A stretch of DNA of 64,000 nt from Druceiella hillmani (taxonomy: Eukaryota; Arthropoda; Insecta; Lepidoptera; Hepialidae). The translations under genes were made by a program, and so were the position numbers. The stretch lies in NCBI GenBank assembly GCA_039881145.1, contig JAYKKI010000077.1:3976501-4040500 (forward strand). Direction: 5' to 3'. Positions 12,898-52,845 of this stretch are shown here, piece by piece; position 1 is the stretch's first letter, and each line of letters begins with the position of its first letter. The notes beneath the pieces were generated by a model. That model did not search any database, was not told the origin of the DNA, and saw nothing but the letters and a program-made list of their open reading frames with translations.

Positions 12898-13009
12898 GCC
12901 AATTCACAATGCGGTCCAGAACAATGATATTCCGTTGCTACAAAGACAGTGCTTAGTGCTCAAGTCGAAGGGAGAGAATGTCGACTTGGGTGATGAAGAC
13001 AAGGATACG
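12898..13009 (+). CDS. IkB-like ankyrin-repeat protein, coding exon 2 (ankyrin repeat 1)
   Basis: A 112-nt exon, acceptor CAG at 12895-12897 and donor ACG|GTAAGC. It encodes residues 556-593. The translation GPIHNAVQNNDIPLLQRQ continues as an ankyrin helix pair and ends in VDLGDEDKDT, the finger that leads into the next repeat. The pattern xPIHxAVxxNDxxxLxRQ is close to the first repeat of IkB-family proteins. It ends in phase 0, which fits exon 3. A 14-kb intron follows. Confidence 0.8.
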
Positions 13010-13426
13010 GTAAGCGAATTACCTAGAAATATTAGTATTCTCATTCTGCCGATGTGGTTTTGTAATCGTACCATTAAGTGCGCCAAATTAGAAATTAAAA
13101 AAAAGGAATACCACAGAAGTGCAAAGCATGTTTGTAAAAGTCATTTATTACGTGAATTACCTAAGCACAACGAAGCTTTGTTTTATAAATATTACTGTAA
13201 ATATTTCAGTTTTTAAAATAAGGAATTAAAATTACTTTCATTTCTATTAGTGTTTGGAATCTATAAAATGATACTTCCCACAAATCCATAATGATAGGGG
13301 TCATTAGAGTTACTGTTTAGTTTGGTACCATTAATAGGACTGTATAGCAGAGAAGATATTACTATTAGTCCTTTTACTTCAGCATGGACAAAGTTTGCAA
13401 TCGGATATTGTCTATCGGCTGCAGGC

Positions 13427-13462
13427 AGCTCAGCAGAAGTTATAAATAAGTTCTGCTGAGCT
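13427..13462. repeat. 12-bp perfect inverted repeat, 12-nt loop
   Basis: AGCTCAGCAGAA (13427-13438) and TTCTGCTGAGCT (13451-13462) are exact complements. The stretch around it (13261-13473) is GC-richer than the intron and has an uninterrupted minus-strand frame of 70 codons with no domain I recognise, so it may be part of a repeat. Confidence 0.8.
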
Positions 13463-14439
13463 TCATATAACATTGGGATATAAAAAATTCAAAGTTTTTA
13501 AAAACTTAATGGAAGAAATTTCGTGCTTCCAAGAGAGACTGTATATCACTAAAGTCCATAAATAATGTAAGGATAATGAGATATTTAGGTGCAATAAACA
13601 ACTAACATTTGTCAAAATCATAGATTTTTCAAATTATCTCTAAGTACTAATATAAAATTTTCAGTTATTTTCCAGAAATCTATGTATAAATTTCAAGAAC
13701 ATTTTTTCTGTTAATTTCTATCTGATTTAACTTTTTTATGGACTAATGGCTGTGCCAATGTATTCAAGTTGACTGTCTCGGGCGCCTACTCTCTGCACAT
13801 TTCATTATTGTTGGCGTACAGTTTTAACCCTATATTTATTCAAATTTGATTTCTTTGTAATTTGCATCGCTAATAATTTGCACTCATGGATGAGGATTAT
13901 ATTTTAATTTTAAGATATGTTGTGTATTGTTAATTTATAAATTAGTATTTGGCCTTTTATGATTTTACTCATATGTACACACAGAAATACATAGGAGTTT
14001 TTGGGTATAAGGAAAAGTTTTAGTTATAATTTATGGTGGATATTTTTGTTGCGAAAAAATAAATTTTTTCCTTAAATATGTGGTGCATTTCTATGAAAAT
14101 GAATACTTATAAAATTCCCTATGTACCCCTACGTCTAGTCACTAGTATGTTCATGATGGATAAATTTGGTATTTTATTCCGTGACAAAATTTACCACACT
14201 TTTACTTACGGCCTTAATACATACTTACGGCCTGTCAGAAGTGAAACTCGCATTACAAGGGTTTCGTACACATTTAGGCATTTATAAACATCTAGTAGTA
14301 CATAATATTCCTATTAAATTATTTACAAAATTTCAATATTTTAGGCTAAATATGTTGCCTACTTTATTTTCCACAGGTGCATATTTAAAAAAAAAATTTT
14401 TTATTTGATTTAACCACAAATTAACGATTTTCGAATTTT

Positions 14440-14565
14440 TCCCTTTGTTAGTGTTGTGAGACTCTGCTTTTTGTCAAATTTCATGATTCTAGGTCAACGG
14501 GAACTACCCTATAGGTTTTGATTTATTTGCGAGTGTCAAAACTGGGCATAATGTGGCATAAATGG
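14440..14565. repeat. Fragment of a dispersed repeat
   Basis: The stretch with ATGATTCTAGGTCAACGGG and ACCCTATAGGTTTTGAT reads like a dispersed repeat that I recall from other insect, mainly lepidopteran, sequence. No coding capacity. The family cannot be named from sequence alone. Confidence 0.4.
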
Positions 14566-15639
14566 CCACGCAATTTGCAAGTTCTTAAAAAATACGCAAC
14601 AAAGACTTGTTTCCATATGAGACTTTATCACTGCCATTTTATTTGATATACAGACACAAAATTAATTGTAAATACACTTCAAGATATTTAGAATCCCCAT
14701 ATTTGGATAATAAAATGTTTATTTGAAAAAGAATGCCGTAAATTGCCTATATTTTTAGTCGATGGAGTGGCGTTACCCTTTTAAACTGTTGTCCAAAGTC
14801 AATAAGAAACTGTACGGGTATCGAGTCTGTTTTTACAAAATGGTAGGATGTTCAAGATTTAAAATACGAATCTTGTCTATTATTAGTTATATGATTATAG
14901 AATTTTAATATATCGGTGACTCTGCAATGCCGCGAAACTAACGATTGCAATAAGGTGCAAACTCAACTAGACTAATATTGAAAATTAGAGCTTAAGGCAG
15001 TTGTTATTTACGCGGTATTGCATTAGAGATGACGATATGCAAATTAAATCATTTTTGTTTTAGAGAGACTAAGTTATATTTACCATAAACATTAGTTGAC
15101 AATAGTAAAAATATTATAAAACTTTAATTACATATGTATATGTATGTAAAGCTGTATATATAAGTGAACTAGAATTGTACTGAACATTGACCAAAAAAAT
15201 TAATACAATCAAGTGGTATATTCACATTTATAGTCTCTTTAAAAGAAAAGTCAAGTGACATAATCAGAGATAAAATAAGGCTAATTGGTAATATTCCAGT
15301 TAGCTTGGACAGTTTTGAACAGAAATATTTTGCCACCAGTATTTTGCTACAGTTATCAAAAGGAAAAACCTAATTTCTTTAATCTTGTACAGAAGCCTGT
15401 TATCAGAATGCAAATAGGTTGACAAATATGTACACAGCATTAAAAGAACTCAATATACACATAAGATGCAGAATGTATTTTATGTGAACGTCGCCTCGTT
15501 TACTATTTTACCTTGCTAAAATTGTCTAATCAAATTCTTAATTTTTCATTGTTTGTGACATTACATTATTTCTCTTTGAGTTGCACAAAGAATAATGTCT
15601 ATGAGCGAGACTGATGCTGCATACTGCCCCTTCTTTGGT

Positions 15640-16215
15640 CTTGGTTCGTTTGGTTCTTTACACTGAATGGATTCTTCACTTTGCTTCAAACGTTAACTAA
15701 TTCTAAACGCTAATAAAAAACTTATTTGTAAACATTGCATAAAATTTTTCGCATTGTATTTAATTCTACACATTGCACTTAATTTTTTTTACACAGCATT
15801 ACATTTTTTGTACTTCACTTTATTATTTATACTATAAAATATTTTTCCATTTTTCTTGCTGGTTTTTTTACTTTTTACAACATATTTTATTTTTCACGGT
15901 ATGTTTGATAGTAAATGTTGATTCTTATATTTCATTTTTAATATTGCTCATTTACTTGGTTCTCTGATACATCATATAGCATCACAACTTTACCTGTTTA
16001 TTCATAACAATTGATTTTACACATTGCTCTTCATACTATCTTTGGTAATTCACGTTTCACTTTAATTCACTTTGCACTTGATTCTTTAAATTGCTGATTC
16101 TACATACTACACTTGAATGTTTATTTACACTATACTGTATTTTATTATTCCATACAATACTTGATTTTCCACATTGCATTTGATTTTTTGTTTTTCACTT
16201 ATTAATTGTATATTA
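15640..16215. repeat. Degenerate short tandem repeat, TTCACATTGCACTTGATT-like
   Basis: About 570 bp in which variants of a 20-25-bp phrase (an AATT or GATT core, then TTTACACATTGCACTT) recur with heavy drift, for example near 15765, 16015, 16065, 16090 and 16165. It looks like an old minisatellite. It lies just 3' of the Helitron helicase relic in that element's orientation and may be part of it. Confidence 0.45.
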
Positions 16216-16529
16216 CACTATCTGTGATACCTGGAATTGCCGGGTCAAAATATATTGCACGCTTAATGGTATAAAGATCAGTTTTTCATCTTATGTATAC
16301 AGATGTTTATTTCATTAAACGTATGATATATATAATATATATGAAATTAATTAATTATGTAAATAATGGAATTAAAACACAGGTTAGAATTAAAAATACT
16401 TATTTCAATAAAAAATTTGCTTTTTTAAAAAAAAAATTATGTTAAACATTTAAAATTTTTGTCACAATACCTGCTTATATATACATAACATATTGACATT
16501 TTTTAGAGACAGTTATCTTTTATTAATTT

Positions 16530-17600
16530 TTACTCACAGCACTTCTTTGTACACAATATTTAGAGTTTTATGGTCTGGGCTGTAAATGAACAAATTTTGA
16601 AGTGAACCAACTCGCAAACACGCAACATACAATTGGCCGTGTGAAAAGCATGTTTTCTTTAGATTAACACTGCAATATTGAAATGTTTGACCCTGTGATG
16701 GTCATGCTGGAAGCTAACTTAATTCGGAATTATATTACCTTAAAAGTGAAGGCAATCCAGTTGATATTAAAGGTATTCACGGTATAAATACCATCTGCCC
16801 TTTTCCTTTACCAGTCAATATATTGGCTTCGATAATATGATTCTGTAATTGCTTGATGCAGAGTCTTGTACCGTTACACTGTTTTGGTGAATTTAAATTC
16901 CACAGTAAAATTGGTGAGTCAACTTTCAATTTGAGGCAATGTAATGGTATTCCTGAAACATTCAGTGAATTTAAAAACTCAGTTTAAAAAAGAATAAAAA
17001 GAAAGAGAGGAAAGTTGACACTCTCATCTTCATCTTTCATTGGATCTATCGACATAACTTTTCTCTTCGCCAAGAATCATCTGTTGGACGGTCCTGTTGA
17101 TGTCGTTAACAGTATCATTTTTTGTCGCTAGAATAACTCTCTCCCATAACCATTCTGAATTGATATAATTTTCGACAATGTTCGGATATATTTCTGTTAT
17201 GAGTTGTTCAGGTGTTTCAACAGTGTTGCACAGTTCATTTGTCAGTACGATTTGGCCAAAATTTGCATCTATAGGATAGGTGCCTTCACCTATTTGTAAA
17301 AGTTTTTCAGAAAATTCTTATGCTTTTTCGTCTCTTGAAATTTGTGCTCTCATATTTGTTATTAATTTAATTGTTATTATGTGTTGCCATATGACTGACT
17401 TTTTCATTAATTTCATCCGCTGGTGTCGATTTTCGAATGACAGGCAGCATTTGACGAAAATTGTCTGACAATATCAGCGATACACCTCCCATGCTGATAA
17501 TTTGACTTTACTACTCAAACAACATATATTTTCAGTTTCTTTCAATTTTTTTGGCATTGCAATCTTACATACTTCGCTCGATTTTCTGACAACGATATTC
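16530..17600 (-). pseudogene. Helitron helicase (Pif1-like) C-terminal relic
   Basis: Minus-strand translation of 16535-16715 gives QGQTFQYCSVNL, then CFSHGQLYVACLRVGS, LFIYSPDHKTLNIVY and a stop, which is the C-terminal signature of Rep/Hel Helitron proteins (the KSQGQT helicase motif onwards). Further upstream on the same strand are LKVDSPILLWNLN, CNGTRLCIKQLQ, ILTGKGKGQMVFIP, then ERVILATKND and LILSDNFRQMLPVI, in the order expected of Helitron helicases. Stops and frameshifts break it (for instance just before the QGQT motif), so it is dead. The Rep (HUH nuclease) part was not found. The Helitron termini (5' TC, 3' CTRR with hairpin) could not be fixed. Confidence 0.85.
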
Positions 17601-17627
17601 GGATGTTTATCGTATTTTTTCATAGGA

Positions 17628-17890
17628 TCATAATTGAACGCTGGTAATTCTAAATTGTAGTTCGTTCGTCATACGTTTTTGGGGTGGAGACCTGCTTTGT
17701 TTATTTCGTTCATTTACTATTTGTTGTTGATTAACTAATTGATGATTTGTAATTGATCGTACTCTAATTCGTGTTTCTCCTTTAATGTTTGCTCTTCGTT
17801 CTTCACTTTGATTTTCTCTTAATCGTTGCACTCCTTTTCAAATTCTCGTAAGTCGATCTGTTCTTTGTTTTTCTCTTTCATTTTTACGTG
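17628..17890 (-). pseudogene. Helitron-type N-terminal basic-repeat remnant
   Basis: A minus-strand frame reads RLRENQSEERRANIKGET and similar Arg/Glu-rich text. It resembles the R-Q-R-R-A-N-E-T-E-E-Q-R-type repeats that precede Helitron_like_N domains. It is followed, after a gap where Rep and most of the helicase should be, by the helicase relic at lower coordinates. I read this as the 5' coding end of an internally deleted Helitron. Less certain than the helicase part because the composition is simple. Confidence 0.5.
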
Positions 17891-17966
17891 CTACTCCATT
17901 GTAAATCTACACGGAATTTTGTTGCGTTTAGGTATCTTACTTAAATAAAATATTATTATTTAGAAA

Positions 17967-18340
17967 AGAACATTCACTCTTGACTTTTAGAAAAATTTCT
18001 CGTTGACCTACTCTTGACCGCTGCTGAAAAACACTGTGACGAAAAGACGCAGAGTTCAAATTTATATACCATTGACGATCGAAATTTCTGGTCCCAGAAT
18101 AATTTCTGATTCCAGAATATTCGGACGTATTCGATGCTAAGCTCTTGATAATCACTTGAATTCACTGATAGAATATTCAATCTTGACTTTTAGAAACATT
18201 TCTCATTGATCTTCTCTTGACTGCTGCTGTGAAAACACTGTGATGGAAACATGCTGAGCTCCAATTTATATACCATCGATGATCGAAATTTCTGATTCCT
18301 AAATAATTTCTGATTCCAGAATATTCTGTTTAAGATTCAA
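17967..18340 (-). promoter_or_regulatory. Two tandem HSE-TATA promoter-like units (minus strand)
   Basis: A ~203-bp unit is repeated twice (17967-18169 and 18170-18340, the second partial). Each copy holds, on the minus strand, a perfect three-block HSE TTCCAGAATATTC (18110-18122 and 18314-18326; GAATATTCTGGAA on the minus strand), then 42 bp later a TATATAAA box (18061-18068 and 18265-18272). A leader with a CACAGTG motif about 30 bp further on follows. This is the layout of insect heat-shock promoters. It points into the Helitron remnant at 17890-16530. Confidence 0.7.
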
Positions 18341-18835
18341 ACTATTTTCAAATAATTTACGACATTTGAAAACATTTTAGAACTTTCCAGAATGTTTTCA
18401 AATTTTGTAGAATATTCCAGAGCATTTTAAAATGATCATATTCAATTTTAAGTGATTTACAACATTTAAGAGTAAATTAGAACTTTTCAGAATGTTTTCG
18501 AATGTTTTAGAACATTCCAGAGCATTTTAGAACGATGAAATTAAATTTCAAGTGATTCACAACATTTAAAGTAATTTAGAACTTTTTAGAACGTTTTCGA
18601 ATTTTTTAGAATATTCCAGAAAATTTTAGAATGATCAGACTCAATTTCAAGTGATGATAACATTTAAGAGTAATTTAGAACTTTTCAGAACGTTTTCAAA
18701 ATTTTTAGAACGTTCCAAAGCATTTTAGAATGATCAGATTCAATTTTAAGTGATTCGCAACATTTGAAAGTAATTTAGAACTTTTCAGAATGTTTACAAC
18801 ATTTTTTACTTTGTATCATTTGGGATTTATTATTC
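18340..18835 (-). repeat. About five ~100-bp tandem repeats rich in HSE-like blocks
   Basis: The phrase AACTTTNCAGAAnGTTTTC recurs at 18381, 18481, 18580, 18679 and 18779, a spacing of 99-100 bp. Each unit holds several GAA/TTC blocks in 5-bp register, for example GAACTTTCCAGAA and GAATATTCCAG, which are drifted heat-shock elements. The units differ by scattered substitutions and small gaps, so the array is not young. Confidence 0.85.
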
Positions 18836-18941
18836 TAAATCATTGTGGAACATTAAAGAATATTTTAGAACATATTAGAACATTCTACACCACAGCAGAC
18901 CATCATCGAACATTTTAGAAATATGAGATTATCTTAGGTTT

Positions 18942-18989
18942 TTCTAGAATATTCTGGAATATTCAAGATCGTTCTCGAACATTCTAGAA
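18942..18989. promoter_or_regulatory. Ten-block heat-shock element, nine blocks perfect
   Basis: Alternating TTC and GAA triplets at exact 5-bp spacing: TTC 18942, GAA 18947, TTC 18952, GAA 18957, TTC 18962, GAT 18967 (one mismatch), TTC 18972, GAA 18977, TTC 18982, GAA 18987. A functional HSE needs about three such blocks for one HSF trimer, and this could hold three. It lies distal to the HSE-like tandem array and the two TATA units, in line with an upstream enhancer for a minus-strand promoter. Confidence 0.9.
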
Positions 18990-19014
18990 AAGTGTTAGAA
19001 AAGGATAAAAATAT

Positions 19015-19165
19015 TTTATTACATTTTTGTCACCCACCATTACATTTTTGGCACACACCATTTCCACCCACCGGGACCAAACTCCCTTACGCACACCAGG
19101 AGATCAAGGGGCATCTACCACGAAAACCTCGAGTGGGTGGCAGTAGGTGGTCATTGTGGAAAGTC
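19015..19165. other. GC-rich insert with CACCCACC / GTGGGTGG inverted motifs
   Basis: A short block with base composition unlike its surroundings. It has CACCCACC near 19031, CCACCCACCGGGACC near 19065 and the complementary GAGTGGGTGGCAG near 19131. It may be the subterminal part of the neighbouring Helitron or a separate captured fragment. No gene seen. Confidence 0.4.
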
Positions 19166-19199
19166 TTACAGTCTTCTTTTATATATGTATATGTATATT

Positions 19200-20475
19200 G
19201 AATTAATATTATTGACATTTGTGGCAGAAATTATGTAATAATATGAAGAACACATGATTCATATAAGCAACCATATATAGTATGTAATGAACACATGATT
19301 TTTTAAACTTTTCGCATTGGCTTTTTCTCTGGATCTTATGATGGGTGTTTTGGAAAATTTCATTTTGATGGAGATTTTACGTGATGTTTTTCACCAGACA
19401 CGAACCTATAAAAATACATTTTTAAGTACATAGTGGTATTTCGACGTTGGTATTCAATGTGAATGGAGTAATATGGAATTATTTTAATTTTATAAATTGT
19501 AGACAGTCTTACAGACCTTTATTTAAACATTAGCTTTAATATCTCCACTCAATTTGGAAAAATTAAATCTAGATGTACTATAAACCTTAATTTTTTTTTA
19601 AGTTGGTACACTTAACCCAGTTTTAACATTAAACACATTTTTTTGGTCCACATATAATCTGTACTTTTATCCACTATAATTTCTTTGAGCCTTTTAATAA
19701 TCTCTTTTAATAATCATTTATTTATCTATCTACCTTTGGCAGTGGAAACCCTAAATCTCATCTTCACCCCATTTCTTGATAACGCTTTTGAACAAATTGA
19801 TTTCAACCATTGCTTACCAGTTTCGACTGATAATATATGGGATAACGATATTTTTATAGTGTTTCATAAACAAAATACAAATCAAGTGTCAATGACGGGA
19901 ATTACGATGACCGTAATGCTAATCTCTGAGTCAGCAATTCTCTGTAGCATTTGTGAATCACGTAGGTAGGCTGTGACCTATGTTAATAAAGTTTCCTGTT
20001 TCATATTGATTTTTTTGTTTCTAATGGCTGTATGCTTACTGGGACTATCTTTTGGTACCTACTACGAGTTTAAAACTGATTAAAAGAGTAATTTTTATTT
20101 GAAAGTAGCTTTATATTATTAAACATGTCGAAATTTAGAAATGACATGTTTGTTAATGTACCAACATAATTGATCCATTATCCGAAAAACCTATGCAAAT
20201 TATCCAATGCCGTATAGGAGTATACGCGGTTACTCTGCCTTATTAAACCAAGGGTACACCCACGACACTTTATACTAGCGAACTGATTTAATTGCTTAAA
20301 CTATTTATTACATACATACTCGCCTATCCATATCTGTATTCTTTACGCCTATCCATATTCTTTACGCAGTAATAGTTAATATTCTTTGCCAATGGTCTTT
20401 CATCAACTTCCAACATGCAATAAGCTGCATGCAATAAGCTGATGATATCTTCATACATCATCCTTCATGCTCCAA
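19200..20475. other. Mostly featureless; one coding-like patch at 19740-19850 (minus)
   Basis: On the minus strand 19740-19850 reads LSVETGKQWLKSICSKALSR and continues for about 12 residues before stops. Its composition is coding-like, but I do not recognise the family. The rest is AT-rich and unassigned. Confidence 0.3.
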
Positions 20476-20479
20476 TCAT

Positions 20480-21010
20480 TCTTGTGAAAAAATAGAAGCA
20501 AATATTCTTCTCCGTGACATAGCACACCAACACCGATTTTTTTGGGGCGGAGAACACATGTGGGTTTTCCGCTAGATCAATACTGACAATTCCGAGTGTT
20601 GTTGATAGCCTGTGTGACTGAATCAAACTTCATCAGCTACGAACACATTATTCATTATTCTAACACAGTGCATGCTACAAAGTTAACTAACCACTGACAG
20701 AACTTACTGCATCATAGAGGGTCTAGCGGTTTCAACTATTTCTTGGTATACACATAGCTTTAGTGCTATAAAGCCTAGAAATGCACTCGATCGATGAATT
20801 CCAGTTTGGCTAGCTTTTTCACCAATGTGGACAATTTTACTTTCATTTTAGTCTAAGTTTTGTCTGGGTTTATTGGAGTAATACTAGCTTTTCATTCAAT
20901 ATTTTTTCTCAATTCCATGTAATTCTTTTTGAAAATGGTCAATGAGATATTTAATTGTGCTTTTATTATGCACAGGCGAGTCCAAAAACGCATAAGCAAA
21001 TCTTCTGCTA
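20480..21010 (-). pseudogene. Decayed DDE transposase (Tc/mariner-superfamily type)
   Basis: Minus-strand translation near 20500-20660, over shifting frames, gives FVADEV (the SDEAHF-like catalytic motif), GYQQH, ENPHVFSAPKK and CWCAMSRRRIFASIF. This order matches the central DDE domain of transposases in which DEAHFxLNGYVNKQN..ENPH..VWCAVSRRRIIGP occurs. Stops and frameshifts are frequent. The upstream part (20660-21010) is too degraded to align by eye. It lies in intron 2 in the same orientation as the Helitron relic. Confidence 0.6.
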
Positions 21011-24000
21011 ATGGTCTTGTGCAACTATGAACGAAGATAAATGCTGCTCTGCATGTATGTTATCTTCAGATCTGTGCAGCATGATGGGGTTCTATTAAAC
21101 TGTCTCACTTGTCGTGCGACATTCATGTTGGTTTTTCCTACACTAGACATACAGTACGCATGCACATAGTAGGCATGCCCGTATAAGTGCGGTTTAGCTG
21201 CTGGTGCATGTACAGTTCGGGTTGCAAAATAAATGAGACAGCTGAAAATATTCAAATCAATTCTAATAAGTAATGTTCATAAGTAACTTAAATTAAAATT
21301 TTTTTAAGAATATAGTAAAACATGTATGTGCATGAGACCTGTTTGTGCTTTCGGGTCTTATTTGGATGTAATAATATTGTTCGTGTTTCTCTAGTAATTC
21401 CAGAAAGTTGAAATTTGGGACGTATGCAGTTCTTGCTTTTTCAAGGTACAAGGGTAGAGAGATATATAACCTCACTGTAGCAAGCTATGTCGCATACTTT
21501 ATATTTCCGAGCATCTCGTCGTATGTGAGGGCGAACCTAAAAATAATCGAACCGAAAGCGCGCTTTGTGTGAGTGTTGAAGACCACGCTCGTTCTGGGCA
21601 CCTTCGACATCTCAAATTATTCCCCCTGGCCAGAGTGTTAACCGGCACTTTTATTTAACGGAGAGTACTTTGAAGAGTAATGGAGAGTATCACATCTAAT
21701 GAAGAGTACGTTGAAGGTGACTGAAGGAATTTTGTAAAAAGGTTATAAAATTTTTTATAACAAAAATCTGTTTTTTTTGGCTCCCTCGTATGTTCTAAAA
21801 ATAGGTTATCTTTTAATGCCATTCTTTCCATTTATTTCTTACTGATAGAATTTCTTTATGTAAAACTTGCTCGAAATTGTTGCTTTAATTGTATGAATAT
21901 CATTAATTAATTACTCACAAGTGATTTTGAGTAAATTTAATTGTATATTAATAACTTTATTTCTTTGTGTTAATCACTAGTGATGTGAAGTCAACTTAAT
22001 TACATATTTTGTTACTAATATATAACACTACCATTTGTGGTAGACAGGATAGGAACTAGACACAGCTGTCATCAGTAATTAAATGCATTAATCGTGAGGC
22101 TGAATAGAATTATTCTAATCATATTTTGAAAAATAAAATGAAAATGATCCATAACCTTTTAACAAAGTAGAGCAGGTAGAGAAATAATTATTTTCAAAGG
22201 ATAGTAAAAGTATTATACACACATATGTAAATATATTTATGCGAAGAGTCTGTGTGATGATTGATTAATGTAAGAGTAACAATTTTCATCCGTAAGGGTT
22301 TGTCTGAGCAGACAATTCATGCATTTATTCTTTTCATCTCATGAATGTTTTCTTATTTATCAATCACCTTATTTAATGTACATCTACATATTGCTACCCA
22401 ACAATCTTTTATTCATAAAATGGTTTTAGTAATTTATATACTTAAGAATAAGAGAGAAGAAGAATAAGTAGTTTGAACAGCCCATTGTTCAAAGAAAAGC
22501 CCCTCTTTACTTTCCCTAAGTTATCGACATTACATTTTTAATCAGTTCAGTGTTTGACATGTATTAATATTTATTTTATCTAAGTTATAATTTACTAGTG
22601 CCAGGTCATTGTCCTTTACCAAATCAAATCATTGTCCTTTACTTTAAGTGAATCAAGTTTAAAGACGCATTAAGTGAATGAAGTTTATAGATACGTCACT
22701 AAAATTAAGAAAATAAAATGAAAAAATATATGTAACTTCTTTATAAAGCAGGGTAGTGCTGCAAAATTTAGTATAAAAAAGCACTACTTATTTGGGGCTA
22801 ACTTTATACTCATTGAATCAATAAAAAGAATTTATATTCATAAACAATTTACGAATACAAAATCTCTGTACGAATTCACAATTGAAAATCCATTCCATTA
22901 ACGTCCAGTGTCATGGTATAGTAAAAATATATCAATCTCTGATCTTAAACATTCTAACATACAAGCATTAAAGTAACGCATGATATTTTTAGTGTTCCAT
23001 GGAAAAATTGCCAGTAGTGTGGCAAATGGGTGGAATGCATTACAATGTTTAATTTTTTTATATTTATTAACTCCTTATGTAACATATGTCTACATATTGC
23101 GATGGGATAATCTGTTATTAAGAATCTTATTCCATGACAAAGTCTTAATAATTTATGTACTTTGAATCAAATTGTTACTGAATAAAAAACTCCTCACTAC
23201 TTTTCACTGATATATTAATGTTAAATTTTTAATGATACCAGTTTTCATGCATACATATTTTTCTATAGGCTGTATATCAAAACTTATCACAGGCTTAATT
23301 TACTACAAAATTGGGGCATTGCTCTTTACCAGACAAATGGGAGAACTTTTAATGATGAATTTTATATTGATAAAATCCACAGGCCATTCAAATTCGGTAA
23401 GTTCTCTCATTTGTTTAGTTTTTGACCATTTTATAAAAATATGTGTTCATATTACGTGTTATATAGTCAAAATTGATGTGTTTAATTACAGTAGTGATAA
23501 TCAAAAAGTAATGTTATCTTTCGATACTATTCGATATAAGGGCTATGGTAGTAAATCATGAAGCAATAGCAAAAAAAGTACCTCAAATGAGACAATTGGG
23601 TTACTAAATTCCAAAGATACCTTATCAGCAGTTTGTTTATGAGAGTGCGTTATTCCCCTGTCCCCTCTCTGACTGCTGACATTATCTACAGAAATGGTTA
23701 GTACAAAATACATGACACAAAATAGTGTTTCATGCCGTTACATTAAAGTGAATTATTACCCTATAATTTTACTTTTTAAGGAACATCGTTGGCTTTATTT
23801 AAAAATACTCATCACAATATAAAATATAAGCAAGACTGTAATTACAAATATTTATAGATTTTTTTGCTTGTTAAGAAACATTGATCATTAATATTATGAT
23901 ATAATAATGGGTTCGACAATAATAGTCATAAAAACTGAAATGTTTATTGAATTAGAAAAAAAAATCCATTTTATTACACAGTGCCTCAATACTATTCATT

Positions 24001-24229
24001 AATGTAAAAATATGACAAGTATGAACATTGTATGAATATGATTGTATTTGTTTATATTATATATGCATATATAAGACATGACTATAATAAATACACGTAT
24101 CTTCTTTATAAAAACTACTGAGAATTACTAAAAAAATGAACTGCTTAAAAGGAATCGGTGAAATTATTTTTGTCAAGTTGGTAGAACTTTCCTTAAATAC
24201 CAAGCCAAACTTGAGGGTGATCTGTCAAC
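21011..24229. other. AT-rich intron sequence, no recognised gene
   Basis: Short frames on both strands without domains. A small direct repeat (CATTGTCCTTTAC twice) is at 22600-22640. Nothing else assigned. Confidence 0.4.
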
Positions 24230-24870
24230 TAGTGTGTTTACAGCAGCGGTAATAGGTCGACCTCAATGTTGCTCCCTAAATTTTATTATGAATAAATTTG
24301 AACAAAGAGTTTGCCTTAAATTTTATGTTTCAAACACAATTTCTTTTGCCGAATTGTTAACAATTTTAAAAGCGCGTTATCGTTATTCGATATATGTAAA
24401 ACACAGCCATACGAGTGGTATAAATCGTTCAAAGAGGGCTGTGAAATGGTGGAAGATTTGCCTCATCTCGGACGGCCTTCAACGTCTGTGTGCATGAATA
24501 TCATCATTTCAGTATTAGAGAGTAGGCTCCAGAGTTGAACATTGATAAACTGACCACCATTCACATAGAATTTTAATCAATATTTTGCGCATCGGACATG
24601 TAACCGTAAGACTGGTTCCGAAGGAGCTTAATTTCTTACAAAAAGAGCATGGAATAATCCGTTTTGACTCTATCGAGACATCAAACATTGGAATTAATGG
24701 TCACACCACTTTGGCTATGAGAAATGTATGAAAGAATGGGTCTGATGTTATCGCAGTTTTATTGCAAACAATGGGGTTACTTTGAAGATTACAAAATAAA
24801 TTATGATGAATAAACTTAAATTTGTGTGTTTTTTTAAAAATGCCGGGTAGTTTTTATATAAAAAGTATAA
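24230..24870 (+). pseudogene. Internally deleted mariner transposase
   Basis: From about 24285 the + strand reads FEQRVCLKFYVSN, then with frameshifts the helix-turn-helix text KTQPYEWYKSFKEGREVVED, LPRSGRPSTSV and ELNIDKTTIH, a mariner N-terminal region. By about 24690 the text is that of a mariner C-terminus (YFEDYKIN just before the end), so the catalytic DD34D core is largely missing. The 3' flank ATGCCGGGTAGTTTTTATA resembles a mariner inverted-repeat end. Not functional. Confidence 0.8.
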
Positions 24871-25914
24871 TATAAAAAATACAGTCATGTATGATTGTAT
24901 TTTTTAAGTTATATATGTATATATTATGTTATACAAGGGGGATAATGGAAAACATTTTATTTTTGCAATCAATACTTAGAATCGCTAAAATAAAAACAAC
25001 CAAATTCCTTTCGTAAGATGGATAACAAAAATACAATAAGAAAAAAGGACTTTATTTTTAGTTGTTAAAAAGACATACTATAAATTGATCAGTTTTGTTT
25101 AAGAAAAAATACCTATCTGCCAGAAAACGTAGATTATGTTTTTATCTTTGTGGGAATTTATTACTTTCATATTGTTATCTATAGGGTGATCAAATTTAGT
25201 TAACACCTTTTAGTAATAAAAATAAAACTAAAAACATTTCGATATAAAATAACCTATTTATAATTTTAATTTTTCAAAAATGTTATTTTTAAAGAAATTA
25301 TTTCTGCCTGCCTGCATTTAGTTAGGTTGCCATGATTAATTTTGAAACAACAAAGATACTTAGGTGAATTGTAATGAAGGTGGATCTTGTTATAACAGTG
25401 GTAAATGTTCATCGAACTGGTTTGATCCACTGGGTGTTCAAGCAAAATGTCTAGGGAAGATTAGTAAGAAGAGTTCTCGGTGATAGTCTTGACGTGTTGT
25501 GTTATATGTAAAAGCATTCTGATACATGGCGCAATGGTTATGACAAATATATAATGATTGCTCATGAAGAAGGTCACGATGAAACTACTGAAACTGGTCA
25601 GATGTCCTTTACCGCTCTTACTGCGTAAAATATACTCACACACCACCCAGCATGCTATTCTAAAGTTGCAGGAATTATAGTTGGAAATCCTATATGACCA
25701 GTTATGCTTATGGAATTTTCACCAACAAAAATTTAATTTTTTTCACAATCTGGAAGTTTTTATAAGACAAAAAATGAAATTTTCAAGAGATGAGGCCAGA
25801 AAGCCAATCCTTTAAAGAGTTCGACAATTCCTTTTCAGTATAGACTTTTACACTAAAATGGCAAAACTGTGTTAACAAGATAATAGAATATGGATTATTT
25901 AAAGTAGGATTATT

Positions 25915-25998
25915 TCTATGCATATACATAGTATATACATAGTTATGTGTATATGTGCATATACATAGTGTATACATAGTATATACATAGTGTATCTA
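25915..25998. repeat. Interrupted TATACATAG-type microsatellite
   Basis: Variants of CATATACATAGTATA recur with small changes over about 80 bp. It sits immediately beside the 3' end of the minus-strand LINE relic. Confidence 0.75.
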
Positions 25999-26350
25999 TC
26001 TACCTACGAACTTGTAGCATCAATATCCATGTCTCAGCTCCATATAGGAAGATGGGAAATGCAAACAATCGCATCAAGTGAACTTTAGTGTTTTGGTGAT
26101 ACATCTGTCCCTCCAATTTTTTCTACAGCAGATCTAGTAACAGCACACCATCCACGATTCTCCTCGCAATCACAGACTTTTGTTACAATAGAGCCTACAT
26201 ATATATGTAGTTTTGTACCATTTCGCAAACATTGTTATTTGCTCAGTCTTTAATAATCATTTTGGTTTTTTCACAATTTATTACGAGACCAAAATTCAGT
26301 GCAGTTTTTTCTTACTCAGTTGATGCAACAAGAGAAGAACTTTAAACGTA
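25990..26350 (-). pseudogene. LINE reverse-transcriptase C-terminal relic
   Basis: The minus strand reads EQITMFAKWYKT, then YVGSIVTKVCDCEEN, and further on HLMRLFAFPIFLYGAETWIL. YLGS..T....CEE followed by YGAETW is typical of the thumb and post-RT region of insect non-LTR retrotransposons (the family of elements often misannotated as craniofacial development protein). A frameshift separates the blocks. No endonuclease or palm domain lies upstream, so it is 5' truncated, as usual for LINE copies. Confidence 0.75.
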
Positions 26351-27214
26351 TTGCATGCAAAATTTTATTTAAAAGTATGGATAATCAGTTAATTTAGAAA
26401 GAACAGCGGTGAAAATAGTCTGGCATTATGGAAATAGAATAGAATTTATTTACAAGTAAAATAATATCAATTGATGAAAAAAGTACATTTTACTACATTG
26501 GTATATTTGCTAATTGACATATTTTAGTTAATGAGACATAATAAGTCATTACTGAGACTTAATTAGACTTAAATCATCATAATTATTTATATTAATGTTA
26601 CAATTTATACCCCACATGTCATTTCACATTCTTTTTTGTAATAAAATTCAAATTTGAATCATGTAGAAAAATGCAACGACAACATTTTTTTTGCATGTTT
26701 ATTGTGTGAAGATTATTTTATACTTCAGGGCATATTTCTCCCTTTTGATTCAAAAAAATCTATTTTCACTTAAATATATTTATTTGAAACATTAAATACT
26801 TGAAGGATTTTTGGAATGAGTCAGGAATTTTTATCACGAGCATCTATGCATGTACCGATAGTGTCTATATTGAATTTAAGACTATATATGGGAATATTGT
26901 CAATTGGGTAATAAAAAAGTAAATAACAATGAAATCCCATCTTATTTTATTGTGTCAAGGTAACAGAACGGGAAAAATATAGTTTCATTTGTTTTGATGA
27001 GTTTTCCTCATTAATAAAAAAGTACACTTAAAACTCATAAACGCAATCATCAAATTAAGAAAGTAATTAAATTAAAATTTGAAAATGGATAGAAGAATAC
27101 GATTACAAATTAACACGGTAGCTTGAATAGAATCTAGGTAGATTATATTATCCAATATATTCATATTAAAATATAATGATTATTAAGACTATGCATGATT
27201 AAATTTTTTTCCAG

Positions 27215-27494
27215 TCTCCTCTTCAGCTCGCTGTGACTGAAGGCTCCAATATTGACTGCATCAAAATCCTACTTAAACATGGCGCAAACATGCTCTATAA
27301 GGATGCTACTTCTTCCACCGTCCTCCATTATTGCATCAACTCTGAGGATGAGCAGTATACTAATTATTTCATTATATATATGGAACAAAATGCCGAGGCC
27401 ATATTGGAAGCAGCCGGTCTGAAGTTACATGAGAACAAAGAAGACAATAAGCAAAAAGTCTTGAAAGAGGCAAATTTGGTTAAGAATGAGGATG
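27215..27494 (+). CDS. IkB-like ankyrin-repeat protein, coding exon 3 (ankyrin repeats 2-3)
   Basis: Encodes residues 594-686 and the first base of codon 687. It opens at a strong acceptor (TTTTTTTCCAG) with SPLQLAVTEGSNIDCIK, then LLKHGAN, a textbook second ankyrin repeat, followed by a diverged third repeat (TVLHYCIN) and a charged insert (HENKEDNKQKVLKEANLV). The donor that keeps the frame with exon 4 is GATG|GTTGGT, a weak site; a better-looking GTAAAT four bases on would shift the frame. If the intron is retained, translation stops at 27500-27502 after GDGW. Confidence 0.8.
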
Positions 27495-29441
27495 GTTGGT
27501 AAATTTTGAAAACTCTTTGTAATTAATTACTTAGATTAATTTATTGAGCACATTCATGATATGTTATTGCTAAGAATGAAATTTTCTGATAAATTTGAAA
27601 AAGGAGAATCAAAATTTGACATTTAAATATGTGAAAAATTATTGAAACAATATGAATATCATCAAGAACAAAAATTTGTCTTTGGTAAATTAAAATTTGA
27701 AGTACAAATGTCCTTTTTGTCTCCTTTACGCCATTTAGAAAAATGCCACAGAAATATGATCAGAAATAAAAATTTCATTGTATAATTGTGTTGTTGTTAC
27801 TATAGGGATTGTTTATGGATTTTTATTACGTATGTAAAAAAAATATACGTTATATCAAATTTTCCTGCAAAATATTGTGCGAAACCCCAATTTGTTACCC
27901 TTGAAACCACTGTATTACTGATATTTCTGTTTTTATGAACGATGTTCCATCCCTGAATGAAAAGTTTGGGCCGTTTATTGTATAGAATTGTATGTCTAGG
28001 AGTTATTTTCCAATATGGATAACACATATTTTAAATTGTTTAAAGTAAATAGATGGAATGTTATTCATGTGTAATAGACTTATTACGCAAACACTTGTAA
28101 TATTGCATAGATACAACTTTACAATCAGCAGACAAGAAAAAGTGAGAGTATTAATAGTAAAAAACAAAATATGACAAATAATTTTTTTTAAGTACTATTA
28201 TCGTGGACTTGACGGACGGTTGGATGGTCTACCTGACCATCTGTCCGTCTGTCTGTCAAGGCTTTATAGTTTCTACAGTTTTGTACTTATATAGGTGGGA
28301 ATGTTAATTAATAAGAGACAAAGTATTTAAAAAATGTTTTTTTAAATATTTATTTAGAACATTTTTTTTCTTACATCCCATTGTGCAGGGTTGCTTACAA
28401 TGAAATTGGAAGTCTTATCTATGCTCGTAGACTGACTGCAATTTTTCTTTCTCTGAATATTCTCCAATTAAGACTATATTCTTTGATTTGAAGCCAATTA
28501 ACAAAATTCCTTTATTATCCAAAAAAAAAAACTATCAACTTTCTGACTGAATCCAAAACTAAGTTTCTTAATTGTTTGTTTTTAAGTTCAATTGGTGTAT
28601 CCATCTTTTGTGGTGCATCAACTCCTATTTATTTTTAAGTTCAAAGTGATGAAACAATTATTACAATTTAAAGGAGGGGTAAATTCTTTGCCACACAACT
28701 CCAGAAAGTGTTAGGCGCTTCTGTTCATTGTTGTTTTTGGGGTGGCATGAGTATTGTTCGCACCCATTTTTCTGATGCGGAAAGATGTTTGTTATTTCGG
28801 CGAATATATTTCCATATATATATATTTTTTAATTCTTCAAAATATCTGGCATGTTTTTTTCATTCCTATCTCTATCATGTTTCAAAAACAGTGTCGCTTG
28901 TGTTGATGGAGACATTGATTCCCGTATACAGTACCCTCTAATATGAGGAAGTTGATAAGTACACAATACTTGATTGCGCTATGGTACATGATTCTCAAAT
29001 AGTAAATGGGCTTACACCGAGGATATCTCTTCATTCTGCCGATTTTTGCCTTCATTATATAGAAAGTTCAAATTTGATTGTATATTTAATAAAAAAAATA
29101 ATTTTTCTCTAAATTATTCCAATTTTTAGTAAAATTTATTTGTAGCATGATATTGATTTTTACCATTAAAAATATTTTAGAAATAAATGCAAATATTTAG
29201 TCAATATGTGAGCATGCTTAATTAAATAGCTATTATAACATATTTTTCTACAAAAATTTAATCACAATTGTTTCACCTTATTACAATTAAACATAAACCA
29301 CTATAGAAAGATAAACGGAACAAAGTTATAAATAATCCTTATAAGAATTTGTCTTTGGTATACTTCTTATAGGAATCGTAAAACCTGCATTATAAAAATG
29401 GAAATTGAATTAAATTTTAAAATATTTTAATATTTTTATAG
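27495..29441 (+). other. Intron 3 of the IkB-like gene
   Basis: 1947 bp, weak donor GTTGGT, acceptor TTTTTATAG. It includes a GACGGACGGTTGGATGG...CTGTCCGTCTGTCTGTC stretch at 28208-28260 of the kind found in dispersed insect repeats. No coding relic recognised. Confidence 0.65.
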
Positions 29442-29600: not shown

Positions 29601-32204
29601 GTACTATTATTTACAGTGCATACTGCCGATATTTTTAAATGGATGCCCGTCGCAGATGCCGTGTTTCAGTAGTTTCTTATTAGTGTAGTGATATAATTAT
29701 TTCACAAACATTCATGTGATTTACTTTTAAGGCATGTAAATATGAAACAGTTGTTTATTCAGGTTAAGTTTGCTGTGTGCGTATAATTTAACATTTAAGG
29801 AAATAAATCTAATTCAATGACATAGTATGCAAATTGGGTAACCGAGCATAGTGTTACACCTGTTTTTATAAAGGTACTATTTTCATAAACCATTGAATCA
29901 CTTTTTAATTTTATTGTTCATCAAGAATACTGCTGGGGAAGATTAACATTTTGACAAAAAATAATTCAGTAGATAGAAGAAAACTGTAACTTTTGCCATA
30001 AACTGATTAGAAAGGATCAAATCACGAGTCTCTCATAGTTTGTAATGAGTTTACGGCAAAAGGTACCGTTAGGTTTCTTTGATTTAGTGAAATAAAAAAA
30101 CAATCTCTGTTACAAACGATGGGAATTGAAGTAAAACATGAAATGCTCATTAACACTATTCCGTCTGGTGACACCATCTTAGTTTCATATGACAACAATT
30201 GAATAAGTTCAAGTGGCACTGAGTAGGTGTGACAAGATTATATAATAATAAAAAATCTTAACTTATTTGAATACATCATAGAAATTTCACAAAGATAGGG
30301 GAGATATGATTAAAAACTATTACAATTTTTATATTTTACTAAGATGTTTTGCAAACCAAAAAATACTGGTGACAAGCGAATAAATCTATGCATTGGACAG
30401 CAAAGCATGCTCACCATGCGAATGTGAAAGTGTTAATAGCTACTAAAACTGTGACGGGCATCAGTTTTAAAAGATGGCGACTAATATAATTTAGTGTTGA
30501 TATTAGGTAGGAAGTAAGTGTATTTGATTTTGTAAATGACACCACATACAATTGATCTATGGAGTATTATATTCTATCTCAGTCATTCCATTCCATTAAT
30601 TGTTTTGACTCGAAGATTCCGGATTCTTTGTGAAAATATAATAGAATATTAAAAAAATTGTACACTATATAGAAACTATTATCTATTATGCCTTGCAGAA
30701 CCTTTTCTGTTACAAACAGTTAAAAGACTAAATGTTTTGTATCTTTAACAGAGTTGTCTTATATAATTTGCAGAGATCACGCGTCACAAATATCTGGATT
30801 TAGACAAATATTTTAAACAGAAACAAGTATTAACAATTATCGTATTTGTCATATAAGTAAAACAAAAATAGTTTTTTTGCTCAGGACATTAAAAAAAACA
30901 GAATTGATATAAATTCATATAAATAGCCAGTGTTGTTAAGTTAAACCTGCACGCTGCGGTTTTGTCACAGTGTGTCAAGAGAAAAATTATAATCCCAACT
31001 TTTTCCTTTGTATTCTTTTTTATTATGTACTTTTTCAAACCCTATATTGCATTAAATACAAGTTCAGTTTGAATTTCAAAAATTTGATTGATATGGAAGC
31101 CAAACACACAAAAACAAAAATCGGCCAAAATATGATTCTAACCCTTTTTCTGGAAAAATTCTTCCACTGAAACTACTCATCGTAGAATGAGGTTGATGAC
31201 CTTATGTGTAATAAAATATTTAGTCAATGAACTTTTGAAATTTCACAAAATTTCAAAGTAGCAATATTTTAACTAGAATTGTTATATAGAAATAAAAATA
31301 CTTAATTTTTTTAGAATCGTTATATAGAGTTAAAAATCAGTAAATGTTATGTTAATAATTTTTAATTGATGTATTGAACAGCATTACTACCATTATGTGG
31401 CCAAATTTTACAAATTGGATATATTTTGAAAGGTTTTAAAGTTAAATGTTTCAATTTAAAGTTATTTTTTTTCCTGATGGCGTAGGATTGCATGGTTTTC
31501 TATTCAAGTATTTTTGACAGTTTTTTAGTATTTACTCATTTTATTACAAATTTATTTTCACATTTTGTTTCTATGTTCACTTTAATTTCTCATCTTGTTA
31601 ATTTCTGAATATACCTTTGAGAAATATTCAGTTTGTTTCGGGTTTTTTAATCAAACAGAATAAATCCTTTACTTCTATTTTAAATAAATCGATAATTATA
31701 ACAAAGAACCTGTCTATTATTCATACAGGTGATTCAGTGTTTCAAAGTTAAAAAATATAAATTTTTTTGTTGAAATTGCAAATTTGAGAATAATTTTTTT
31801 CAAAAGTGGTCAAGAATTTTTATATAGTACCATAAAACTTTCTACTCAATTCGAAGCATAGATTCACATAATAGAGGACTGAATTTAATATTATTTCGAT
31901 AAATATTATATGGTTTTGAGAGGCCAAAATAACAAAAAACTTCACACAATTTTCTCTTTGCTTATTATTACTTGGTGTAAATTAATTGTTACATGTCGGT
32001 ATTCCTAGACCACTGCAACTGTCTATCTAAAGTATTACAGATGAAACTTTTATGTCTATAAATTGTTTCAAATAATCTTAACCGTCTTCTTTTAAACTTA
32101 AAAATATTTTATTTTCCATTTAATTGACTCGTTGGAAATTATTTAAAAAGAAATATTTAATAATAATTTGATTAATAATTATTGAAAATTTCTTCTATTT
32201 CTAG
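29601..32204 (+). other. Intron 4 of the IkB-like gene
   Basis: 2604 bp between donor GTACTA and acceptor TTTCTAG. AT-rich; no transposon coding relic or RNA gene recognised. Confidence 0.65.
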
Positions 32205-34024
32205 ATTCTAACAACAGATCCACAGTGCCTGAACAATATCTGAAAACAATCGAAAAGCTCTTCTCATATGGAGCAGATCCTGAGATAGAAAATTACGGTG
32301 GCCTGAACGTGGCTAGTCTTGTGAGTGAGAACCAGATACCGTGCCTTGTCAATGTCGTTTCGAGTCCTAAACATTTCAACACCCTCCCCAACGAATCGCT
32401 ATATCCTAATAATGTAGTTCATGTAAAAAACAATGTGCCGTTAAAGCAAATTAGTAATAAAGATGATACAATTGAAAACGGCAATGAACATAAAACTAAA
32501 AGTAATATTGCAGACTATCCTAATAATGCAACTTGGCCTGAAATAACTTTGAAGCTGAACAATAAACCCGAAGCGACTATCTTAAATTACAATATTGGTA
32601 AAAATTCTAATTCTTCTCAGAAGATGACGTCAGATAATTTGAATGCAGTTTCAGTTATCAGGATAGTTGATAAACAGATTCAAAAACCTCAGATAAACAA
32701 TGTTGTACGGGTCTTCACTAATGATGGCAAAATGTTGTTGCATAAAATTCAAAAGCCAATTGACAATAATGTAGCACAGACATTTGACAAGACGACTATC
32801 GGAGTGCAAATCTCCGATAGTCATCCTATAACGAAAATAAATAATTCAAATGCCAATAAATGTGTTGTAGTGGAAACTACCCAGAAACCTACAACAGATA
32901 TAGACGTACAAAAGGTAAACAGTAATGCCAAACCGGCCATTTTGCAAAATATCACAGTAAGTCCTCCCTTAATTACTTCCAATTTGAATTGCCCTCCTAG
33001 ATTTTTACCTAAAATAGTTCCTAAAACAAATTTGCCTCTGAATTCTGTTTCTAGTAAAATAATAATTAATTCAAGATCTGTTAGTACTTCTCAAAGTATT
33101 GTTTCTCAAGGATATAGTTTGGTTTTGAGTGGCCAAAACAGCGGTTCTAATTCAGACAGTAAAGTAAAAGTAGGTGAATTTATTGTGAAGGCAAATTCTG
33201 TAGTAATTCCCAATGTAAAGCCGGAACAAATAGAATGCAAAACTGCAGTTAAGTCAAAGAGTTATGATAATATTAATTTCATTAGGAAACATCAAACTGA
33301 TGCAGAGGTGGTCGTGGCAGTAAATGTTGACAGTGCCCAAACTAAAAACATCAATTCGATTCCTACATCTATTAATTCAGGTAATATAGAAAACGTCGGT
33401 AGAGACAAGCATTCTCAGGTTAGGGTGGATTATTCTAAATTAGGTAAAACAGATGTTGAAAAAAAATTAAAAGTAATGAAATCCTTTCCAATAGTTGCTA
33501 ACAGTTCAAATTCTGGAAACATGCAGAGTCAATTGAAGAATGCATCTGATACATTGAAAAATGTGTACGGGTTAACTTATGTGCAACCGAGCAAGACTGT
33601 CGTAACTGTGATGGAAAAGGTTGCAAGTAATACGTTGAGCTCTGAAATAATGGTAAAGCAGAATTCTACTACAGACATTTCTAGGAGTGAAAATCAAATG
33701 CAAAATAAACCTGTTAATAAAGATATAGTAAACGATAATATTAATCCAACAGATAATTATGGAAAATTTAAACAATTAGGTAAATTATTGGATGAAAAAT
33801 TAAAAATAAAAGCGATGGCTTTGAAAAGTGTAAGTGTAAAGAGTGCAGATAGCAATGTGCAAAAGTCTAAAGAATCGATAGTAGGGAATGTTGATAAAAC
33901 TGAAGTTTCCACCCGAGTTTTAGGTAAGAGATCAAAGAAGATGCCAAAAAGATATACACCTGATAATATATCTTCTCCTTCTCGTCCCAAGTATAAAAGG
34001 AATAGTAGTTCTTCCGATTCTTGA
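32205..34024 (+). CDS. IkB-like ankyrin-repeat protein, coding exon 5 (last repeat and C-terminal tail)
   Basis: Encodes residues 740-1345 and the stop TGA at 34022-34024. It begins DSNNRSTVPEQYLKTIEKLF, then SYGADPEIENYGGLNVASLV, which completes ankyrin repeats 5 and 6. From about residue 775 on the chain is low-complexity, rich in Asn, Ser, Lys and Val with no globular domain that I can see. It ends in a strongly basic tail (GKRSKKMPKRY, SRPKYKRNSSSSDS) that could be a second nuclear signal. The whole 1.8 kb is one open frame, far longer than chance in such AT-rich DNA. An 11-bp hairpin is embedded at 32794-32822. Confidence 0.88.
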
Positions 34025-51541: not shown

Positions 51542-52060
51542 CTACGAATACCTATTTCGTTGAAGGAATGGGCAGTACCCGTTTTTTTCAACTTCTTTTT
51601 GTATTTTCATAATTTGGTTGTTTGGATTATTAATTCTAGAACATTCAACTAATTCATTAAATTCAGCTTTATTCATTTGTACCAAATCCTCAAAATCTAG
51701 AGTCAAATCTAGGTTAACAGCTAAATATTGACCATCTGTATCTAATGCGTTTATTTGTACCCGCGATAATGCGCCCTCATTCGTGTTTTGAGATGTCTTC
51801 TTGCACACGATGTCGTACTCTTCTAATTTTAACTTCCATCTCGTTAGTTTTTAATTTTTTTTTTAATTGAGTAAAACCAAGTTAAGGTTCTATTTTCCGT
51901 ATAAATCGTAAATTTACGCCCGTTCACATATGGCCTGAAATATTTTGTTGACCACAATATTGCTAGCAGCTCTTTTTCTATTGCGGAATACTTTTGCTCT
52001 GTATCACTGAGAGTTCTACTGGCATATGCTATTGGTTTATGCATACCGATTGTACCTTGT
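51542..52060 (-). pseudogene. RNase H and connecting region of the Ty3/gypsy relic
   Basis: 51844-52044 reads PIAYASRTLSDTEQKYSAIE, then ELLAILWSTKYFRPYVNGRK and TENRTLTW (TDHxxLTW with the Asp replaced by Glu), a Ty3/gypsy RNase H. 51542-51808 continues with KKTSQNTNEGALSRV (the NxxADALSR motif) and the linker towards integrase. Confidence 0.88.
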
Positions 52061-52149
52061 GATAGAACTGCTTCTAAGGCGACATTCGATGATCTGTTGT
52101 GAGTATAAACCTTGTCTGAGATATCGTGCTCTAAATACGCTAATTCTTT

Positions 52150-52700
52150 CTTAGCTGTATTTTAAAATTTGTTTGTCTTAACCTGTTAAATACTTCTTTT
52201 AATTTACTTATGTGTTCTTATAATGACGTGGAATATACGATAATATCATCAAGGTAAACTAGCATTTTTCTGTCTGTAGACCACGTAAGATATTATCCTT
52301 AAGCCTTTGAAACGTGGTCGGCGCGTTGTTCAATCCAAACGGCATTCGGTTATATTCGTAATGGCCGCGTTCTGTTGAAAAAGCAAGTTTTTCCGAGCCT
52401 CCAGGGTCTATTTCTACTTGATGGTATCCTGAAAGTTGTAAAGTATTGACTTCTAAGTTTGTGAAGTATTGACTTCCGCCTAAGTTATCTAGGATATCAT
52501 TAATATTCGGTATAGAATATATGTCTTCAATAATCTTATCGTTTTTATTTCCTATAGTCTATTACCATTCTGTATTTTTGGTTTCTCGTCGCGTAATTTT
52601 TTTTTGGTACAATATGAACGGGAAACTCCATGGTGAGGATGATGGCTTTATTATATCACGTTATAACAGGTCTACTTGTTTCCTAATTTCGTAATTTTTA
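52150..52700 (-). pseudogene. Reverse-transcriptase relic of the Ty3/gypsy element
   Basis: The minus strand reads HYEYNRMPFGLNNAPTTFQR near 52310-52370 and MLVYLDDIIVYSTSL near 52235-52270 (the YLDD active site is intact). A stop follows, then EHISKLKEVFNRLRQTNFKI. Frameshifts break the palm and fingers at 52440-52700. Confidence 0.88.
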
Positions 52701-52845
52701 AATGGGGGTTGTCTGTATATTTTTTTACATTATTATTTAATCTGAGTTTATGCTTAATCTGATTCGTAAAAGTCAGTGGTAATTCTTCACAGTGGAAAAT
52801 ATCTCTATATTCAAGGCATACGTTTTTTATAGTTTTTTGGTCTTC

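Follow-up and report, generated by a model that had tools for sequence, protein, structure and literature searches.

Gene context and organization of the HSE block

The window, as we call the whole 64-kb stretch of DNA analysed, belongs to a genome (G000) of 2.586 Gb in 181 contigs. TTAGG, the telomere repeat that marks arthropods, gave 25,636 overlapping matches in this genome, those listed beginning at the start of contig C1, whereas the reversed control gave none. The plus strand of the window carries a host gene that was read as three exons, all with canonical splice letters, the first of which ends at about position 11392 (Table 1). If these exons are as read, a Helitron lies antisense in intron 2 of the gene (13,010-27,214), which is the placement proposed by the first-pass annotation. 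The same annotation described the gene as IkB-like. Ankyrin repeats are the sole domain found, so that the IkB identity is putative; the matches of a PDB search, too, were to ankyrin repeats, and the 60 best of the 383 included no IkB protein. A protein search with the host ORF at 32186-34024 gave nothing at E<=1e-3 among 8000 candidates scored. Elsewhere in the window, positions 24162-24538 (plus strand) contain what we take to be a fragment of a Mariner-like transposase with an EWYKSFKEGCEMVEDLPHLGRPSTS-type N-terminus, while positions 51542-54286 (minus strand) presumably represent broken Gypsy-type retrotransposon-like pieces with protease- and reverse-transcriptase-like frames.

The HSE block covers positions 17967-18989. 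On the minus strand, a ten-unit HSE array is followed by four repeats of about 100 bp and then by two tandem 204-bp units, each consisting of an HSE, a TATATAAA box and a leader. Strict HSE runs, defined as at least three contiguous alternating nGAAn/nTTCn units, were counted six times within the block, against a mean of 0.066 and a maximum of two in 500 Markov-1 sequences of the block, which ruled out a chance origin; the remainder of the window contains three. In the ten-unit array 29 of 30 positions match, whereas 20 shuffles yielded a mean of three perfect units and a maximum of four. The repeats of about 100 bp start in register at 18362, 18462, 18561 and 18660, with 66-84% identity to the reference copy, and the two tool-paired parts of the 204-bp tandem duplication are 86% identical. 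The block thus displays the organization of an hsp-type promoter, namely an uninterrupted run of three or more inverted nGAAn units that a TATA box follows at a short distance. The ten-block HSE and the two pairs of a perfect HSE with TATATAAA reported in the first-pass annotation were both recovered, the two pairs at the same spacing (Table 1). Its HSE-like repeats of about 100 bp were also present, in the number of four in register and not five.

The Helitron copy that carries the block begins with TCAATAT at its 5' end (19201) and finishes with CAGATAG at its 3' end (16218), so that the block is located within the element and not on its 5' side, as originally described. The copy closes with GATAG, compared with CTAG at the terminus of the family. 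The Rep domain and the middle of the ORF are deleted, and a helicase remnant is retained, which matched Pif1_2B (E 1.7e-11) and, below Pfam's cut-off, PIF1 (E 2.8e-4). The N-terminal remnant gave no Pfam match above cut-off and was recognized through kindred coding in sister copies; both of these remnants had been named beforehand, and both stood. Judged from its sequence, this copy is dead as a transposon, with a predicted promoter that is nearly intact.

Table 1. Positions in the window of the host exons, the Helitron copy and the parts of the HSE block
Feature	Position	Strand	Basis or remark
Exon 2, host ankyrin-repeat (IkB-like) gene	12898..13009	+	Splice letters; donor opens the Helitron-bearing intron
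Exon 3, host ankyrin-repeat (IkB-like) gene	27215..27502 (end is that of the open frame)	+	PF00023 E 1.1e-6, acceptor letters
Whole Helitron copy, internally deleted	16218..19201	-	Shared-sequence boundaries among 21 copies and terminal motifs; 2984 bp
3' terminal hairpin and terminus	16218..16246	-	Family form GACCCGGGCAACGCCGGGTATCGCAGCTAG
Pif1-type helicase remnant (C-terminal part), frames broken	16533..17515 (borders approximate)	-	Pfam
N-terminal Rep-helicase ORF remnant, frames broken	17515..17900 (borders approximate)	-	Related coding in sister copies (tblastn)
204-bp HSE-TATA-leader unit, two in tandem	17967..18326	-	Direct repeats D4, D5
Promoter unit 2, TATATAAA box	18061..18070	-	38 nt downstream of its HSE
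Promoter unit 2, perfect 3-unit HSE	18109..18123	-	
Promoter unit 1, TATATAAA box	18265..18274	-	38 nt downstream of its HSE
Promoter unit 1, perfect 3-unit HSE	18313..18327	-	
Four tandem repeats of ~99-100 bp, HSE units in 5/10-bp phase	18362..18806	-	Direct-repeat analysis
Ten-unit HSE array	18941..18990	-	9/10 units perfect

Sister copies of the Helitron

At least 40 copies of the HSE block, including that of the window, were found in the genome, where 40 of the 207 candidates were scored. In the other copies the best-matching piece is 79-88% identical to the window block. Twenty sister copies were fetched with their flanks, 10 kb each, giving a comparison set of 21 with the window. In 18 of the 20 the shared sequence extends well beyond the block and reaches transposase remnants or the 3' end; L012 and L020 are the only copies in which it breaks off shortly after the block. 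The family begins with TCAATATATA...TATATAAAAGAAGACTG, and its retained 3' side ends at GACCCGGGCAACGCCGGGTATCGCAGCTAG, a hairpin followed by CTAG. Canonical Helitrons start with TC and end with a hairpin and CTRR/CTAG, and both signatures are present in the sister copies, as TCAATATATA at the 5' end and GACCCGGGCAACGCCGGGTATCGCAGCTAG at the 3' end. By a by-eye count, the terminal motif is legible at the 5' end in 15 and at the 3' end in 8 of the 21 copies. Helitrons insert at an A^T site without target duplication; in flanks read by eye, the base preceding the 5' TC is A or T and once G. The Rep domain PF14214 was detected in L015 (E 3.1e-16) and PIF1 in L018 (E 1.8e-18), and the family thereby possesses, in different copies, the Rep (HUH) domain and the Pif1-type helicase of Helitrons. 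Coding sequence like the N-terminal remnant of the window was found by tblastn in 15 of the 20 fetched copies, with a short match in L020; it is missing in L012, L017, L018, L019 and L026. Because the ends and the N-terminal coding are shared across copies, the block can be identified as the stretch between the Helitron 5' end and the transposase ORF. The first-pass annotation had left it to a genome search whether the block is dispersed with Helitron sequence: it is dispersed, and in the copies read it follows the 5' terminus and precedes the remnants of the transposase. Two of the copies, L010 and L022 (G000:C38), about 1.2 Mb apart, match over almost the whole 10 kb including the flanks; this pair is either a segmental duplication or an assembly duplicate carrying the Helitron.

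The best ten-unit block has five to nine perfect units in 20 of the 21 copies and four in L020, against a mean of about three and maxima of three to five in 20 shuffles per copy, and each copy bears one to five promoter TATA units when two mismatches are allowed. With nine perfect units out of ten, the window and L019 tie as the best of the 21. This rank would fit a co-option of the block by the ankyrin (IkB-like) gene, either as an intronic enhancer that responds to heat or as an antisense promoter, and its retention by selection; however, five other copies also keep eight of the ten units, and we regard such a co-option as highly improbable.

The copies of the window family are old (mean identity 79.7% over 351 pairwise matches of at least 700 nt), and the longest frame within the element among 14 copies screened, window included, is 216 aa. 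Over the 21 copies, the GAA/TTC positions showed a conservation of 0.920 versus 0.908 for the rest, without excess (circular-shift fraction 0.16). Since these positions are no better conserved than the others, the copies have the look of neutral decay, with no sign of selection on the HSEs after insertion, and purifying selection on the HSEs of dead copies was rejected.

In order to choose copies independently of the block itself, the genome was also searched with the 3' part of the element (40 scored of 178), and three of the places obtained were read upstream. L071 contains the entire block, with HSE runs of four, three and three units. L070 has one promoter unit with no match upstream of it, and L069 is cut farther down, ahead of any promoter. 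None of these three copies presents an intact 5' end devoid of HSEs. Of the 40 places, seven fall on contigs C1-C10 within the part covered by the HSE matches listed; in three of these seven (on C4, C7 and C8), a perfect five-unit HSE is located upstream at a distance of 3.1-4.1 kb.

HSEs in other Helitrons and at hsp70 genes

Perfect five-unit HSEs were found 413 times in the genome (both strands, overlapping runs being counted more than once) versus 25 times for the reversed-pattern control. The 100 matches listed correspond to 77 distinct places, of which every fourth from the second was taken, giving a sample of 19 loci. As these loci were chosen for their HSEs, only the sequence behind the HSE counts as independent evidence; the HSEs of families A and C, which were picked via the five-unit pattern, are likewise there by selection, which does not apply to the TATA box or to the start of the Helitron ORF behind them. 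Four sampled loci (L036, L041, L043 and L044) belong to the window family, four (L031, L038, L040 and L046) to family A and three (L032, L037 and L039) to family C, so that 8 of the 19 lie within two firm Helitron families, or 11 including family C.

In family A, L031 and L046 show an HSE array, a TATA box, a leader and a Helitron-type ORF start in this order on one strand, and PF14214 was detected downstream, in L046/L053, in two pieces (E 7e-23 and 1.6e-10). L038 was joined to the ORF of L031 by tblastn (E 5e-12), and L040 to the family by DNA and by a Rep-region-like frame that lacks a Pfam match. The sole blastn match to the window family among the sampled loci outside its own four is a stretch of 346 nt of L040, located in coding sequence. 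Family C is probably a third HSE-Helitron family with an array and a TATA box ahead of a transposase start, an assignment made by one 81-nt match between the ORF starts of L039 and L031 (72%, E 2.9e-6) and by-eye likeness; L032 and L037 match L039 in DNA. The ~2.6 kb following the L032 TATA box yielded neither a Rep or helicase domain nor a legible transposase.

Another four sampled loci (L030, L033, L042 and L047) contain a common dispersed repeat with perfect five-unit HSEs, pairs of them sharing stretches of up to ~170 bp, which is possibly another HSE-spreading element. L029, L034, L035 and L045 fit no group. The last of these (G000:C8:27194720-27196320) has a seven-unit HSE, a second HSE, TATATAAG and a short ORF starting MPKHKRIF, an arrangement that resembles one more HSE-TATA gene start, preceded by a (TA)n tract.

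The HSE-like array could also be a by-product of the tandem amplification of an AT-rich, 10-bp-periodic sequence within the Helitron, for example a structural satellite, to which HSF never bound. Such an origin would account for the 10-bp periodicity, for the tandem repeats of about 100 bp and for GAA/TTC positions without extra conservation, but not readily for alternating GAA/TTC in 5-bp phase beside TATA boxes in more than one Helitron family, nor for the excess of five-unit HSEs over the reversed pattern. We consider it very doubtful.

Other Helitrons are abundant in the genome, PF14214 having given 5330 candidates (150 scored) with several open frames above 1100 aa. In four of these long-frame Helitrons (L048-L051), no strict HSE run was found in the 2.5 kb read ahead of the Rep domain, which includes 1.1-1.35 kb ahead of the ORF start. 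This indicates that HSE control is confined to certain families, and an HSE promoter as a universal Helitron feature was rejected. One of the four, L050 (G000:C12:41576059-41578560), with a frame of 1164 aa, has three tandem repeats of ~309 bp upstream of its ORF and no HSEs, potentially another repeated promoter-like layout.

A search for the HSP70 family gave 33 matches in the genome, six of them long. The comparison with host hsp genes was made on five hsp70 5' regions (L064-L068), from the genes whose match begins with the first position of the profile or one adjacent to it. By eye, these regions have HSE-like sequence, a TATA box such as TATATAAG and an A-rich leader, as the Helitron block does. 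They differ from it in that strict HSE runs occur in only two of the five within ~1 kb, the longest having four units, so that the Helitron promoter has more and longer HSEs than the five hsp70 genes read. Perfect runs of seven or eight units are present in L032, L043 and L045. When compared by blastn with 20 window-family copies, the hsp70 regions gave no match at E<=0.01, and their matches to other HSE loci were of 14-50 nt only. A simple hsp70 relic was thus rejected, the block being dispersed with Helitron sequence and without such a match. The first-pass annotation had considered that its reading would fall if the block stood alone at a host hsp gene and was never linked to Helitron copies; with hsp70, this was not what was found.

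Helitrons are carriers of gene fragments, and a host hsp promoter might have been captured as passenger DNA without any role in transposase expression. The hsp-like layout of the block and the by-eye features of the hsp70 5' regions are consistent with such a capture, but the absence of a blastn match between these regions and the window family, the shortness of their matches to other HSE loci, and the fact that in the window family, in family A and probably in family C the block immediately precedes the transposase ORF and shares its strand make it unlikely. In a variant of this proposal, an ancient hsp capture, for which the tests covered hsp70 only, may have been followed by its use as a promoter. 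No match was found in viral contigs for the promoter unit or the 3' end; the helicase piece gave nine pattern matches there, none of which was confirmed, and the phage records searched gave no match. The perfect seven-unit HSE pattern occurs in nine viral contigs (L055-L063).

A putative heat-shock promoter of the Helitron and its known counterparts

As the best-supported account, we consider it likely that the block is an HSF-driven promoter of the Helitron's own Rep-helicase gene. The block is dispersed in the genome and linked to Helitron sequence, and its HSE-TATA layout together with the sister-copy linkage confirms what had been described at the outset as a heat-shock-type promoter architecture on a rolling-circle transposon. 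In the predicted promoter, the ten-unit HSE and the HSE repeats of about 100 bp would form an HSF-responsive enhancer upstream of the core promoters, these being the tandem HSE-TATA-leader units that continue into the transposase ORF. When the ancestral element was alive, heat or another proteotoxic stress would have loaded the host HSF onto the arrays, and transcription would have started some tens of bases downstream from the TATA boxes. Rolling-circle transposition would thereby be timed to stress, and every new copy would disperse an HSE array. Since the promoter of the window copy is nearly intact, it may still bind HSF and start a heat-induced RNA antisense to the ankyrin gene. If it works, this RNA could start near 18.03-18.24 kb and head toward exon 2, and an effect on the host ankyrin gene could follow. 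It is by analogy with the worm Helitrons that we propose HSF binding, heat induction and a timing of transposition to stress.

HSE-carrying Helitrons of Caenorhabditis, which the first-pass annotation had evoked, are indeed described in two reports as Helitron1_CE, HelitronY1_CE and Helitron7_CB, with 14 Helitron HSEs ahead of a Helitron1_CE transposase gene and 85 ahead of one of Helitron7_CB (PMC6927752, PMC6765114). In C. elegans, 10 HSEs are reported upstream of col-88 versus two at hsp-70 (PMC6927752), and the RNA of Helitron1_CE is described as heat-induced, HSF-1-bound and HSF-1-dependent (PMC6765114). These elements have dense HSE clusters inside them, upstream of Rep-helicase, and more HSEs than the host hsp-70; HSE clusters in this position were found here as well, in many Helitron copies. 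The present case differs in its arthropod host and in its duplicated HSE-TATA-leader core promoters, and it is described here at the level of sequence. ONSEN/COPIA78 of the Brassicaceae is reported to be similarly heat-activated, with heat-responsive elements in the transposon's own regulatory region, but is an LTR retrotransposon of plants and not a Helitron (PMC5059998).

A 2019 survey of UCSC metazoan genomes reported enrichment of HSEs in Helitrons for Caenorhabditis alone, and concluded that HSE-rich Helitrons may be restricted to this genus (PMC6927752). When the initial 1500 nt of 20 copies of the window family were scanned, the motif printed there, NGAANNTCCNNGGAN, gave no match, versus 99 for nGAAnnTTCnnGAAn. 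This difference suggests that the negative result of the survey may not hold elsewhere and merits a second look. A sea anemone study cites the worm Helitrons (PMC13104882). Our search of the open-access literature, by title and abstract opening, found no arthropod Helitron with HSEs.

A dead Helitron and its sister copies with an HSE promoter suggest that these elements use the heat alarm of their host to switch on. On balance we favour the view that Helitrons driven by heat shock are not confined to nematodes, and that two Helitron families of this arthropod at least, and probably a third, express their transposase from putative HSF promoters. Helitrons would then be a main source of long HSE arrays in the genome, and for this reason may have rewired the host heat response as in worms, possibly convergently. 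HSE-dense Helitrons were already known from Caenorhabditis, and the arthropod case is new relative to the literature found. If these Helitrons are heat-driven, it would become directly testable whether HSF-mediated, stress-timed transposition has more than one origin, and whether heat responsiveness can be spread across the genome of an arthropod by a transposon, with an immune-type ankyrin gene among the recipients.
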